Below, piece after piece: positions 12,134 to 17,518 of a stretch of 20,232 bases of DNA (its first letter is position 1; every line of letters starts with the position of its first letter). Both the position numbers and the translations under genes were made by a program. The DNA is from a virus: positions 1 through 20,232 of IMG/VR virus record IMGVR_UViG_3300044707_000442; one strand, written 5' to 3'. The notes beneath the pieces were generated by a model that had not been told where the DNA came from, did not search any database, and saw only the letters and a program-made list of their open reading frames with translations.

Positions 12134-12706
12134 TTACCAGGTGACTTCTTTGTTGTCGGTTCCGGTTTTCAGCGTTTTGGAATCGGAGACATCTTCAAAG
12201 TCGATGTCTGCGGAAGATCCGCCGCCAAATGTGACGAGGTCTTTGACTTGCACCTTGATCGGCTGAAGCTGAACGCCGAAGCCAGCCGACGCATTGTAGT
12301 AATGCGGGCGGAACATGATGCGGATGATGCTGTCTTTTCCGATGTTGGCGGTGATCGGCTTTTTGTCCATGTCCGTCAGCTCGGGCTGGCGACTGGTGCC
12401 ATCTGGCCAAGCGTCGGCGACCTTGAAGTTGAACTTGGTGACGCCGTCGTTCTCGAGCCACGGGAAGGCGGCCTTCTGCGCTTTCTTGCCGACCTCCTCG
12501 CACCATGCCTTGTATTCGGATGCGTACGATTTTTCGATTGCCGCGATGACACCTTCGGCGTCGTTGTTGGTGACGTACAGCTCGGCGCGATACGCCGCCC
12601 TCTTGTCGCCCTCAAACATCTTGGGAGCGTTGACGTAGACCCATCCAGCTTTGCCAAACGGAGTAGCGAGCGTGACGGTCTTGTATTTCGGTTGCTTTAT
12701 TTTCAT
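12134..12706 (-). CDS. single-stranded DNA-binding protein, gp2.5/DUF2815-like
   Basis: 190-aa protein. N-terminal KTVTLATPFGKAGWVYVNAP leads into an OB-fold-like beta region. The C-terminal part has FRPHYYNASAGFGVQLQPIK followed by VQVKDLVTFGG, the characteristic element of phage SSBs of the T7 gp2.5/DUF2815 kind in which a Y/F-rich loop contacts DNA. The last residues are moderately acidic (DIDFEDVSDS) and end in tryptophan, in keeping with a protein-contact tail. It would coat ssDNA during replication and recombination. The neighbours are a resolvase-like nuclease and an exonuclease, supporting that role. Confidence 0.8.
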   Translation of the reverse strand: MKIKQPKYKTVTLATPFGKAGWVYVNAPKMFEGDKRAAYRAELYVTNNDAEGVIAAIEKSYASEYKAWCEEVGKKAQKAAFPWLENDGVTKFNFKVADAWPDGTSRQPELTDMDKKPITANIGKDSIIRIMFRPHYYNASAGFGVQLQPIKVQVKDLVTFGGGSSADIDFEDVSDSKTLKTGTDNKEVTW

Positions 12707-12710
12707 GTGG

Positions 12711-13061
12711 TTATTTGGGTTTTTGTGTTGGGACTAGAAAATCGGAGCGGCGAAGGATGGTGAGAAAGTCCTGCGCGCGCAGCGTGATGAACCACTCCTC
12801 GCCGTTGCGCTTGTGGGCGACGACTGGGAAGAGCTTGGCCTTGGCATCGCGGATGGCTTGGGCCATCCAATCGCGGATCTTCACGACTTGGCAGAATTTC
12901 ACCTCAAAGTGGAAATCTGGAAGGCAAGGGCAGACAACATCGGGCGAGTCGCCGAGGCCGCTGAACTGCTGGCCGCGGCGGATACCGGAGTCGCCGAAGG
13001 CTTCGCGCAGCTCGTCGCGCCACATGCGCTCTCCGCGGGCGCCCTTTGCTCTGCTATTCAT
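12711..13061 (-). CDS. Holliday-junction-resolvase-like PD-(D/E)XK endonuclease
   Basis: 116-aa protein. The start MNSRAKGARGERMWRDELRE overlaps the helicase stop by 8 bases (ATGAATAG); the longer open reading before it lies inside the helicase gene. Likely catalytic residues are E11 (ARGERMW), D41 (SPDVV) and E53-x-K55 (FHFEVKF). The run RRGQQFSG followed by DSPDVV is typical of small phage enzymes annotated as Holliday junction resolvases. The expected role is cutting branched DNA before packaging. GAGG 6 bases ahead of ATG can serve as ribosome site. Confidence 0.85.
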   Translation of the reverse strand: MNSRAKGARGERMWRDELREAFGDSGIRRGQQFSGLGDSPDVVCPCLPDFHFEVKFCQVVKIRDWMAQAIRDAKAKLFPVVAHKRNGEEWFITLRAQDFLTILRRSDFLVPTQKPK

Positions 13062-14448
13062 TGATGGCCTCCATGAGTTTCGGCGAGACAGGGAATAGGT
13101 CGCTGGCCTTTTCCTGTCCCCACGGCACGTCCGGCTCGTCTGTGAATCGGTCGCTGACGCTGTCAAATCGGGTATACGGAGGATGCCACATAAGCGGGAT
13201 GACTCCGGTGCGGCCAGCGCGGTGCTTGGCTACGGTCCACTCGGCTTCGTGGCTGTCCTGCGGGTTGCTTTCGGTCTCGTAGTAGCTCTTGCGGTAGAGC
13301 AGGGTGACGATGTCGGCGTCCGCCTCAATCTGGCCAGAGTCGCGAAGGTCGGCCATCTTGGGGCGGTTGTCGCCGCGCTCTTCGGCTTTGCGGTTCAACT
13401 GCGCGGCGGCGAGCACCGGAACCTTCAGCTCCATAGCCATGCTTTTTAACCCGCGGGAGACGAAGCCGACCTCATTCTCGCGTGACTGCGCGTTCTTTGC
13501 GGAGAGGAGCTGCAGGTAGTCAACGAGGACGACTTTCACGCCGTGCTTTTTGACAGCGCGGCGCGCACGCGCGCGGACATCCATGATGCTGAGACCGCCC
13601 TGGTCATCGATGAAGAGCGGCTGGCCGGCGAGACGCATGTGCTCATGCTCAAGGCGGCGCATCTCGTCGTGCTCAATGTCGCCGAGCTTGAGGCGGGTGC
13701 TGTCGAAGGATGCCCGCGCGCAGATGATGCGCTGGATCAGCTCTAGCTTCAGCATTTCAAGGCTGAAGAGCAGCACCGGAATGCCGCGGGCAACAAGTCG
13801 GTCAGCGATGTTGACGAGCAAGGCGCTCTTGCCCATGGCGGGACGAGCGGCGACCAAAACGAATTGGCCTTCGCGCAGGCCGCCGGTCCAGAGGTCGAAG
13901 GTCTTGTAGCCGGTGACGATGCCGCGGGGCTTGCCGCGCTCGGCCACGCTGCGGTGCAACTCGGCGAGGGCGCCGTGCATCATCGCGCTGGCGGGCTGGA
14001 TGGTGTCGGACTTGCCGGCGAGGTCGATGTCGAGGACCGCAGTGCCGGCGGTGGCGAGCGCCTCGTCCGCATCCTGGGTCGTGTCCATGGCGGCAGCCTT
14101 CATTCGGTCGGCTGCGGTGATGATCTTCCGGCGGGCCGCGTAGTCGCGCAGGATGCCAAGCTGGTAGTCGATGTTGCGGGTCAGCGCTTGACCGATCATC
14201 TCGGTCACAGCGCCGGGTCCGCCGACCTTGACCAGCTCCTTGCGCGCTTCAAGCAGACGGGTGACCTGGATGAGGTCCGGCGTGCCGCCGTCCACAACGA
14301 TCTCGCTGATGGCGCTGAAGACGGTCTTATGGTCGGGGCGGAAAAAGTATTCGTCGGTCAGCTCGGGAAGTTCGGCGAGGAGGTCGCCGTGGTTCATCAA
14401 GGCGCCGAGGACGTAGGCTTCGGTCTTGGGGTCGTGTGGCGTGATCAT
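13054..14448 (-). CDS. replicative DNA helicase, DnaB type
   Basis: 464-aa hexameric helicase. The N-terminal domain begins MITPHDPKTEAYVLGALMNH, as in DnaB proteins. Walker A is ARPAMGKS (201-208), followed by FSLEM with catalytic E231; Walker B is VVLVDYLQLL (D310); the later elements AAAQLNRKAEER and LRDSGQIEADAD are usual for the family. It unwinds DNA at the phage fork and would be loaded by the initiator coded at 16126-16911. The start is chosen because GGAGGAA lies 9 bases before this ATG; an in-frame ATG 24 bases upstream (14472) has no such site and would overlap the membrane micro-gene. Confidence 0.95.
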   Translation of the reverse strand: MITPHDPKTEAYVLGALMNHGDLLAELPELTDEYFFRPDHKTVFSAISEIVVDGGTPDLIQVTRLLEARKELVKVGGPGAVTEMIGQALTRNIDYQLGILRDYAARRKIITAADRMKAAAMDTTQDADEALATAGTAVLDIDLAGKSDTIQPASAMMHGALAELHRSVAERGKPRGIVTGYKTFDLWTGGLREGQFVLVAARPAMGKSALLVNIADRLVARGIPVLLFSLEMLKLELIQRIICARASFDSTRLKLGDIEHDEMRRLEHEHMRLAGQPLFIDDQGGLSIMDVRARARRAVKKHGVKVVLVDYLQLLSAKNAQSRENEVGFVSRGLKSMAMELKVPVLAAAQLNRKAEERGDNRPKMADLRDSGQIEADADIVTLLYRKSYYETESNPQDSHEAEWTVAKHRAGRTGVIPLMWHPPYTRFDSVSDRFTDEPDVPWGQEKASDLFPVSPKLMEAINE

Positions 14449-14449
14449 G

Positions 14450-14545
14450 TCAGGCGGTTCCTCCGCCGTCATTGCCCTCGATGATCACTATGACAATGAT
14501 CGTTGCCAGAATGACGAACAGGTAAGTGAGCAGTAGCGCGTTCAT
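14450..14545 (-). CDS. 31-aa single-helix membrane micro-protein
   Basis: 31 aa: MNALLLTYLFVILATIIVIV, then IIEGNDGGGTA. One strongly hydrophobic helix (about 3-22) followed by a short polar tail. Good initiation signal: GGAGGAAA 7 bases before ATG. Its stop is one base before the helicase ATG, and its last codons form the helicase ribosome site. The frame overlaps the tail of a 71-aa reading frame in another register. A role is not known; small membrane peptides could anchor replication proteins or act as lysis or exclusion factors. Confidence 0.6.
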   Translation of the reverse strand: MNALLLTYLFVILATIIVIVIIEGNDGGGTA

Positions 14546-15611: not shown

Positions 15612-16129
15612 AAAGACGTGGACATTTGTACAGTGGGGGGTCGGACATTGGCTGTCGCATGCCCAGAATTTGTTAGCGATTCCGCGACATCGTTGAGCAA
15701 GTCCCAGTTGCCGGGTTTCCGGTGCTTATTTGGGTCGTAGCGGACGCTGACGCGGTTGCTGATGTCGTCGAAGGTCCAGAAGACAAATTGATTGAGGTCG
15801 GGCAGGTAGGCGGCTAGCACATCGAAGTCGTGGATCTCGTAGGGACGGGCTTTCAGTCCGCCGGTGGCGCGCTTGACGGAGACGTGGTAGGCGCCGCGGT
15901 CGAGGGTGGCGGTCTTGACCTGGACGGCGATCGGGCGGACGCCGGCGCGGGTCAACATCACGTCGGTGGTCTGGGCGTGGCCGAACGGCGTGAAGATCTC
16001 CCAGTCGTGGACTTGGGCGCCGACAATGAAGAGGGACTCGGAGATCTCGCCTTTGCGGCAGGCTGATAGGACGGCGCCGCCGGTGATGGGGGCGTGGATG
16101 CCGTTTTCGAGGGCGAAGAGGGTGCTCAC
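15608..16129 (-). CDS. PD-(D/E)XK endonuclease, I-Ssp6803I-like
   Basis: 173-aa protein with the signatures of the PDDEXK_5 group (same fold as the intron endonuclease I-Ssp6803I): KGEISE (E28/E31) in the first helix, TTDVML (D56), VQVKTA with Q70-x-K72 in place of the usual E-x-K, then YEIHDFDVLAAYLPD and near the end NWDLL. The Q-x-K variant is known in I-Ssp6803I. It starts with GTG overlapping the previous stop (GTGA), with GGGAGG upstream. It sits inside the replication operon, not in an intron, so it is either a free-standing homing-type nuclease or a domesticated repair or branch-cutting enzyme. Confidence 0.75.
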   Translation of the reverse strand: MSTLFALENGIHAPITGGAVLSACRKGEISESLFIVGAQVHDWEIFTPFGHAQTTDVMLTRAGVRPIAVQVKTATLDRGAYHVSVKRATGGLKARPYEIHDFDVLAAYLPDLNQFVFWTFDDISNRVSVRYDPNKHRKPGNWDLLNDVAESLTNSGHATANVRPPTVQMSTSL

Positions 16130-16911
16130 GCCTTGATCCCTCCCACGCGCGCCTCAATGCGCGCATAGTAGTCATCGGCGGCCGACCGGCGGACCACCTG
16201 CGGGGTCGGCTCGGTGAGCGGCGCCTCGACCTTGGACAGCCAATTGATGAACCGGCGGCGGCTGACCGCGCCGACACCCTTGTTGCGGCACCACGTCCGG
16301 CAGCGGCCGTATTCCTCGGCGATCTTGGCGTGGGCGAACTCGGGAAGCTCGGAAAGGTGACGAAACCAAGACTGGTCGTCCAAGTCGGGGCGCAGGGTAG
16401 GGTGCGGCGCTTTGGGGCGAGATTTCCGTTTTTTGGGGGCGGAATTAAGGGGAGCGGAAGATGAAGGGAGCGAAGGCTGCGAAGCAGCCGGAGCGACCGC
16501 ACTGTCAGCGTTTTTTATGTTATCTATAGTTGGGGTGCAGGGATTGCACCACTTAGGTGCAGCATTTGCACCACTTGGGTGCATTTCCTGCACCCATCTC
16601 TCGGACTTAGGTGCAGCATCTGCACCCATCTCAGCGACACCGGGAATTGTCCAAATGCTGGCCTGCAACCCGCTGCCAGCAACCTTTCGGCTGCCGCGCT
16701 CCACCAAGACTAGCTGGCCGGCTTTTTGCAGACGCTTGAGGCAGTCAGCGACCGTCCTCCGAGCCAGCCGTGTCTTCTCGCACAGCTTGCCCCAAGAACC
16801 GAAGCAGTTGCCCATTTCATCGGCGAAGTCTGCCAAAGCCAAAAGGACAAGCCGGTCGGCTCCTTCCGCGGGCGACTTCGTCCAGACGTAGTTGGTGGCG
16901 GCTACGCTCAT
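16126..16911 (-). CDS. replication initiator, HTH type (lambda-O-like arrangement)
   Basis: 261-aa protein. Residues 1-100 form a winged-helix domain: TNYVWTKSPAEGADRLVLLA, then LCEKTRLARRTVADCLKRLQ as recognition part and LVLVERGSRKVAGSG as wing, similar to HTH_36 replication proteins. A low-complexity linker (about 100-165) follows, then a basic C-terminal domain (RRRFINWLSKVEAPLTEPT) that may contact the helicase. The start MSVAATNYV overlaps the upstream stop (ATGA). The linker-coding DNA contains four palindromic iterons and an AT-rich tract, so the gene most likely carries its own origin. The downstream DnaB-type helicase would be its partner. Confidence 0.82.
   Translation of the reverse strand: MSVAATNYVWTKSPAEGADRLVLLALADFADEMGNCFGSWGKLCEKTRLARRTVADCLKRLQKAGQLVLVERGSRKVAGSGLQASIWTIPGVAEMGADAAPKSERWVQEMHPSGANAAPKWCNPCTPTIDNIKNADSAVAPAASQPSLPSSSAPLNSAPKKRKSRPKAPHPTLRPDLDDQSWFRHLSELPEFAHAKIAEEYGRCRTWCRNKGVGAVSRRRFINWLSKVEAPLTEPTPQVVRRSAADDYYARIEARVGGIKA
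16511..16626. other. predicted phage replication origin inside the initiator gene
   Basis: Four 17-bp elements GGTGCA-N5-TGCACC lie at 16534-16550, 16556-16572, 16578-16594 and 16610-16626. Starts are 22, 22 and 32 bp apart, i.e. two, two and three helical turns, so all face the same side. Three carry the same ACTTRG flank. Next to them, downstream in gene sense, lies an AT-rich tract (16511-16530, 17 of 20 A/T). Four palindromic iterons plus an AT-rich unwinding element within the initiator gene is the lambda ori design, in the same polarity. Confidence 0.8.
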
Positions 16912-17357
16912 TTCCGGCGGATCAGTCGGCTCTTCTTGCACTCGTCGCTGCTCTCAAAGATCAGCCGACCCTCCACGTCCGCCATCCCTGACCAGCGCGC
17001 CTTGATGCGGTCGTAGGGCGGATTGACCGGCTGCCAGCTCGCGGCGTCCTTCACATAGCACACCACTGGCTCTGACCAGTCGGGCACCTCAACGAAGAGC
17101 ATGCGCGGGTGACGGGCGCGCTGATGGCGGCAGATCACCGCGGTGACCACATCGCCCGCGCTGTAGCCGATCTGGGCGGCAGTCTCGACGGCCAGCTCTT
17201 TGGGAGTCTTGGGGGTGGCTTTGAGGATGGCCTCCGGTTTGGGCGCCGGGGTAGGTGAGGCGGCTGGCTTCGGAGCTTCCGCTGGCTGCTCCTTGGCGGG
17301 TTGGCTGATTGGTTGACTGATGGTTGACTTGGCGCGCTGTAGGATGTCTTTGATCAT
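16908..17357 (-). CDS. hypothetical protein, first gene of the replication operon
   Basis: 149-aa protein. Residues 15-55 are a proline/alanine/lysine-rich disordered linker (SQPISQPAKEQPAEAPKPAA). The C-terminal 95 residues form a folded part (ELAVETAAQIGYSAGDVVTA, then MLFVEVPDWSEPVVCYVKDA and RWSGMADVEGRLIFES) with no motif I can name. It begins the replication operon, preceding the initiator, with which its stop overlaps (ATGA). Its ATG follows an AT-rich segment (TTTTTTATAAAAACAACTT) without Shine-Dalgarno, so the transcript could be nearly leaderless. Confidence 0.7.
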   Translation of the reverse strand: MIKDILQRAKSTISQPISQPAKEQPAEAPKPAASPTPAPKPEAILKATPKTPKELAVETAAQIGYSAGDVVTAVICRHQRARHPRMLFVEVPDWSEPVVCYVKDAASWQPVNPPYDRIKARWSGMADVEGRLIFESSDECKKSRLIRRK

Positions 17358-17518
17358 AAGTTGTTTTTATAAAAAATTTCGGGAGGTCCAAGCGGTCGGG
17401 GGTATTAGAGAAAATGATAACGACAGACCCCCGCCACCCCCACATAACCACATACAATAACTCTCATGTGCAGCAGCTCTACTCTGTTGTCGCATTAACG
17501 ACTTGGTCAGTTTGCGGC
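17358..17518 (-). promoter_or_regulatory. intergenic promoter region of the replication operon
   Basis: 161-bp gap between the helix-turn-helix gene and the replication operon, more AT-rich than its surroundings. A -10-like TATAAA on the minus strand (17371-17366) lies only 8 bases before the ATG. A TTGGAC (17391-17386) is 14 bases upstream, too close for an ideal -35. A second TAATAC is at 17407-17402. A GTCG/CGAC inverted pair at 17489-17502 may be an operator. Assignment is by eye. Confidence 0.45.

Follow-up and report, generated by a model that had tools for sequence, protein, structure and literature searches.

A 116-bp region in the linker-coding part of a phage replication initiator gene, which carries four palindromic iterons and an AT-rich tract, very probably serves as a replication origin in a module of the P22 gp18/gp12 type. 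The gene lies in a virus record of 20,232 bases, analysed as a whole (hereafter the window) and probably a genome fragment. As judged from sequence comparison, the reading that the origin lies inside the initiator gene is strongly supported, because the same iteron recurs, phased, at the same place and with AT-rich DNA on its 3' side, in 42 divergent lineages. Protein binding, melting, helicase loading and origin activity are what we infer for this region: dimers of the winged-helix (wHTH) domain would bind the four palindromes, which all lie on the same side of the double helix, wrapping the DNA and opening the neighbouring AT-rich tract. The phage DnaB, which is encoded downstream on the same strand, would be recruited by the C-terminal domain of the initiator.

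The initiator gene and its iteron array

The initiator comprises 271 amino acids if translation starts at the GTG at 16941, or 261 if it starts at the ATG at 16911, and consists of a wHTH domain, a probably disordered linker and a C-terminal helical domain (Table 1). The Pfam match to HTH_36 (30 bits against a curated cut-off of 25), the PHROGs assignment to replication initiation (E=5e-16) and the helicase gene bear out the original prediction of an initiator gene in a DnaB-encoding phage. Pfam gave no match to the O family, only HTH_36; some of the PHROGs hit bear O-like names. The genes that follow on this strand encode DnaB, 1.7 kb from the initiator, a gp2.5-like single-stranded DNA-binding protein and an exonuclease, and none of the ten early-region proteins profiled from this 20-kb fragment is a P-type loader. 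In the AF2 model, the wHTH domain is predicted with a pLDDT of about 89-97 across model residues 1-70, and the iteron-coded linker, where confidence is low, is probably disordered. The HTH profile found only weak sequence matches to solved structures (best E=0.008). A fold search of the initiator returned nothing under E=0.001, with MarR-type regulators on top; the initiator entries 4pql, 4pt7 and 5kbj at lower ranks are a lead only.

Four GGTGCA-N5-TGCACC palindromes, spaced by 22, 22 and 32 bp beside a 20-bp AT-rich tract, had been predicted, and exact matching recovers all of them together with the tract, a probable unwinding element. The window holds no other exact copy, and by arithmetic about 0.001 copies per 20 kb are expected by chance. 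That the iterons also repeat in the protein is true of the two copies read as GADAAP and GANAAP and fails for the other two, which are read as VQEMHP and CNPCT. The occurrence of four copies of one DNA word in three reading frames shows that selection acts on the DNA and not on the peptide. Among close relatives with GGTGCA, 1 of 48 columns in the iteron arms is variable, versus 41 of 120 in the flanks. The original prediction also expected a minimum of the cumulative GC skew near 16.5 kb; this was not borne out, as the cumulative G-C has a maximum at 17,416 and no minimum near the site, although this evidence is weak for a fragment of just 20 kb. The third-position GC skew of the same-strand genes at 16100-17416 is -0.1 to -0.6 on the left and mostly positive on the right; it changes at the origin region despite constant gene orientation, and its sign is opposite to the usual leading-strand rule.

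Table 1. Features of the putative origin and of the neighbouring replication genes in the window.
Feature	Coordinates	Strand	Sequence	Basis or remark
Replication initiator gene	16126..16941	-		HTH_36 E=4e-7; PHROG 1032/6643 replication initiation; AF2 model
Winged-helix DNA-binding domain (predicted)	16648..16908	-		residues 12-98 of 271; Pfam residues 27-75
Recognition helix R61-Q73	16723..16761	-		model helix H50-62; iteron-class co-variation
Iteron 1, nearest gene start	16610..16626		GGTGCAGCATCTGCACC	read as GADAAP; exact match
Iteron 2	16578..16594		GGTGCATTTCCTGCACC	read as VQEMHP; exact match
Iteron 3	16556..16572		GGTGCAGCATTTGCACC	read as GANAAP; exact match
Iteron 4	16534..16550		GGTGCAGGGATTGCACC	read as CNPCT; exact match
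AT-rich tract	16511..16530			17/20 AT; 3' of array in gene direction
C-terminal helical domain	16231..16377	-		about residues 189-237; exchangeable among relatives
DnaB-type replicative helicase	13054..14472	-		DnaB_C E=1e-86; PHROG 19 E=3e-101
Gp2.5-like ssDNA-binding protein, replication module	12134..12706	-		PHROG 112 E=9e-19

The iteron in other phages and in bacterial genomes

When IMG/VR was scanned for pairs of neighbouring GGTGCA-N5-TGCACC copies, at least 119 stretches came up; genes in them were sought with an HMM that covers the HTH domain alone and leaves out the linker. Among the matches listed (119 from IMG/VR and the window), the paired copies lie inside a gene recognised by this HMM at 108 of 120 loci, and they are placed 14-87 codons past the wHTH domain, never ahead of it. 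With lineages clustered at 60% identity in a comparison that spans hundreds of related genes, the iteron is present in at least 42 wHTH initiator lineages (the IMG/VR matches listed and later finds); the median pairwise HTH identity was 24% in an earlier set of 41 such lineages. More than one reading frame is used in 28 of the 42 lineages, which again argues that the DNA rather than the peptide is selected. The spacings among the matches listed cluster at 21-24, 31-33 and 42-45 bp and are phased at 10.5 bp (R=0.58, n=109, p~7e-17); one clade has a spacing of 36 bp, not a whole number of turns. Across the 42 lineages the two 20-nt bins 3' of the last iteron exceed the AT content of the gene mean by 14 and 13 points. 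The largest array found (L119) has seven exact copies, 20-25 bp apart, in one initiator gene. Pseudomonas phage Riah (L566) carries six asymmetric iterons, CCCGCA-N5-TGCACC, in which the inner GCA-N5-TGC core is retained and one outer arm is different.

In bacterial genomes, a sample of HTH_36 genes chosen blind to iterons has palindromic iterons after the domain in 24 of 73 genes, versus none in 219 codon-shuffled controls. Tandem GGTGCA palindromes in bacterial genomes lie mostly (102 of 119 loci) outside genes recognised as wHTH initiators, and those examined are mostly dispersed repeats. Genomes of the Thiobacillus and Gallionella type (L126, L131, L150, L128, L130, L143 and similar) contain many dispersed, mostly intergenic pairs of GGTGCA-N5-TGCACC, framed by GTAGGGTGCA...TGCACCCTAC, which look like REP- or MITE-type repeats and are probably unrelated to the phage origins. 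Three further bacterial loci (L198, L163, L144) have tandem GGTGCA palindromes in open frames that went unrecognised by the HTH profile and may encode more distant initiators.

Recognition helix, iteron class and exchange among relatives

Two variable positions of the recognition helix accompany the iteron class: position 3, which the AF2 model places as the second residue of the helix, and position 7, one turn further (R62 and D66 in the window, in the 271-residue numbering). Scans with the iterons GGTCTC and GGACAA again pointed to wHTH genes. Among the matches listed, position 3 is Arg in 42/42 GGTGCA lineages (at most 60% identical) and position 7 in 0/42. Position 7 is Arg in all six GGTCTC lineages, with Ala, Ser or Pro at position 3, and likewise in all six GGACAA lineages, with Arg or Lys at position 3. 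The three CGGAAC lineages known before the dedicated scan all have RKT at positions 2-4. Lineages without any of these four iterons have Arg at position 3 in 24 of 60 cases and at position 7 in 19 of 60, so neither residue is a family constant. The helix residues of the CGGAAC and GTGAC classes were predicted in writing ahead of the scans and were largely confirmed: RKT without Arg7 in 3/3 CGGAAC lineages, one of them within 60% identity of an earlier lineage, and, among the matches listed, Arg at position 3 in 28/29 and at position 7 in 29/29 GTGAC lineages. The Glu predicted at position 2 of the GTGAC genes failed (9/29). Over 88 lineages and five iteron classes, among the matches listed, Arg occupies position 7 in 41/41 lineages with GAC or GTC inside the half-site versus 0/47 others (p=5e-26); the iterons thus co-vary with the HTH domain, as one of the checks originally proposed was to establish. 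A further iteron class that is very common in wHTH genes is tandem GTGAC-N6-GTCAC (L596-L715; at least 120 loci); the pattern lies inside such genes at 64 of 120 loci among the matches listed, and the 56 loci outside recognised wHTH genes may hold other initiators.

Recognition-helix residues would help to determine which palindrome is read: Arg3 without Arg7 would go with GGTGCA, a small residue at position 3 plus Arg7 with GGTCTC, Arg or Lys at position 3 plus Arg7 with GGACAA or GTGAC, and RKT at positions 2-4 without Arg7 with CGGAAC. When the iteron was predicted from the helix in 20 further named phages, with the predictions fixed beforehand, 6 of 15 came true at p<=0.05. Of the phages that failed, some carry a different iteron (GTGAC in Root and PMBT6), some have none detectable, and in some the wrong HTH gene may have been chosen. 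We therefore reject the notion that the two residues suffice to predict the iteron; they are constant companions of the iteron class, not a full code.

Close relatives of the window initiator, found by protein search, illustrate how the specificity may change. Ten of them (L243, L248-L255 and L265) keep the four GGTGCA sites, with one copy altered in L243. In place of GGTGCA, GGTCTCA-N3-TGAGACC is found in L259, L261 and L262, and GGACAA-N1-TTGTCC in L256-L258. Initiators of the same kind without palindromes at this place were to count against the original prediction. Such a case is literally present in L244-L247, whose protein is 86% identical to that of the window and which are without GGTGCA; yet these genes carry another set of palindromes, again GGTCTCA-N3-TGAGACC, and have an altered recognition helix as well, and so speak for the model. 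The replacement between the window and L244 is confined to the block from the recognition helix to the last iteron: the two DNAs are 93-100% identical as far as codon 60, 36-80% from there to about codon 141, and 93-100% again beyond, bar one linker block. L244 matches the window at 96% on either side of the block and at 61% across the iterons, whereas it matches the GGTCTC relatives at 96-97% in the iterons and at only about 40% in the C-terminal part. L256 combines a foreign front half with a window-type C-terminal half; in L249 the front half and the iterons are of the window type and the C-terminal half is foreign. By these alignments, the initiator gene is a mosaic with joints inside the recognition helix and at the border of the iteron array. 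As a single gene holds both helix and sites, at a distance of about 100-230 bp, one recombination event would exchange the specificity and keep the match. ZF40 (L564) and BUCT708 (L569), kin of the enteric GGTGCA group with the helix SKSAV and Ser at position 3, have arrays of CTGTGC-N9-GCACAG and CTATGC-N9-GCATAG, respectively, an apparent further specificity switch.

Alternative readings, related systems and implications

Proteins with a wHTH domain are commonly repressors. The palindromes could be autoregulatory operators through which the protein represses its own gene, with replication starting elsewhere; the common repressor role of such proteins and, weakly, the mostly MarR-type structural neighbours favour this explanation, and site-protein co-variation would look identical under it. 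However, the array lies about 290-410 nt into the gene and not at a promoter, origins typically have such phased arrays of 2-7 copies with an AT-rich tract behind them, PHROGs label the family as replication initiation, and the DnaB gene immediately follows the initiator gene in ZF40 and BUCT708. We regard the operator explanation as distinctly improbable. We also hold it to be very unlikely that the palindromes are binding sites of a host regulator or belong to a dispersed bacterial repeat. TGCACC-N5-GGTGCA, which presumably resembles an NtrC site, is present between copies 22 bp apart, and Thiobacillus and Gallionella genomes do contain the palindrome as a dispersed repeat; but the copies are separated by variable gaps (spacings 17-75), whereas the N5 within most copies is fixed, and the viral copies lie in wHTH genes (108/120 among the matches listed). 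We reject the NtrC-like reading, as the sites track the wHTH genes and change with their recognition helix. It is hardly credible that the repeats persist for the sake of the protein, with GAxxAP or VQxxHP linker peptides as the selected feature: such motifs abound in the linker, and GADAAP and GANAAP do recur, but the linker is modelled with low confidence and probably disordered, and relatives with other iterons encode unrelated linker peptides. Selection at the protein level is contradicted by the multi-frame reading described above and is rejected.

The specificity claim, as distinct from the origin itself, faces the alternative that helix and iteron agree through shared ancestry within each class and not through recognition. 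The scaffold tree is poorly supported: just one independent pair in it has support, and this pair agrees with the predicted direction; the strict phylogenetic test is too weak because the tree rests on only 41 columns, and without the demand for support it contains 25 independent pairs. Against ancestry, nearest scaffold neighbours often belong to another iteron class (L302 and L113 have 93% identical scaffolds and differ in both helix and iteron), members of one class are often just 20-40% identical, and the agreement is present in every scaffold-identity bin. We consider this alternative improbable.

The origin reading, which we prefer, rests on a principle that is already known. The genes of lambda O, P22 gp18 and L gp18 each contain an iteron type of their own, and P22 and L pair the initiator gene 18 with the DnaB-type helicase gene 12 (PMC8022706). 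As in these Salmonella phages, the window has iterons in the initiator gene and a phage-encoded DnaB on the same strand, though its iteron differs from the published L repeat. In the lambda origin, the initiator gene holds four iterons, inverted repeats of 18 bp that each bind two O proteins, with an AT-rich region next to them (PMC6022878). The window shares the tandem palindromic iterons and the 3' AT-rich element; unlike lambda, it has a different iteron, of the GGTGCA class as had been foreseen, an HTH_36/PHROG 1032 protein and its own DnaB. The term lambda-like is thus apt for iterons within the gene and the 3' AT tract but not for the gene arrangement, which on the best reading is closer to gp18-gp12 of P22 and L than to lambda O-P. 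In the Stx phages P27 and 933W, extra iterons within the O gene lengthen the protein (PMC7466680); the linker is shaped by the origin there as in the window, although their iterons are of the lambda class and show no specificity switch. In Vibrio PLE, the DNA-binding domain of RepA and the iterons co-vary and are exchanged together, the C-terminus being kept, and the cognate pairing of RepA_N and origin is reported as established by experiment (PMC8263062). The paired exchange is like that in the window relatives; PLE is a satellite with a RepA_N-family protein and an intergenic origin, and no residue-level correspondence between helix and iteron was found described for it (PMC8263062).

Three things appear to be new: an iteron shared by dozens of divergent initiators, the residue-level match of recognition helix to iteron, and the cassette swap within a single gene. 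We did not find the GGTGCA iteron or this match in the open-access literature, and with the search so bounded the novelty is provisional. The joint change of iteron and DNA-reading helix sorts phage origins into readable specificity groups. Whether the wHTH initiators form origin-specificity groups set mainly by positions 3 and 7, with a group changed through one recombined short cassette, we judge to be evenly balanced. If so, unrelated phages that share an iteron such as GGTGCA could bind, activate or titrate each other's origins, with cross-origin effects in mixed infections or lysogens. As protein and DNA target lie in one gene, each metagenomic copy is a ready pair of helix and site, and the family offers a large natural data set on DNA reading by winged-helix proteins, in which the 86% identical pair of the window and L244 with its different iterons is nearly a natural helix-swap experiment. 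It would also allow replication origins to be located in phages that are uncultivated, and phages to be sorted into origin-compatibility groups that can be tested.
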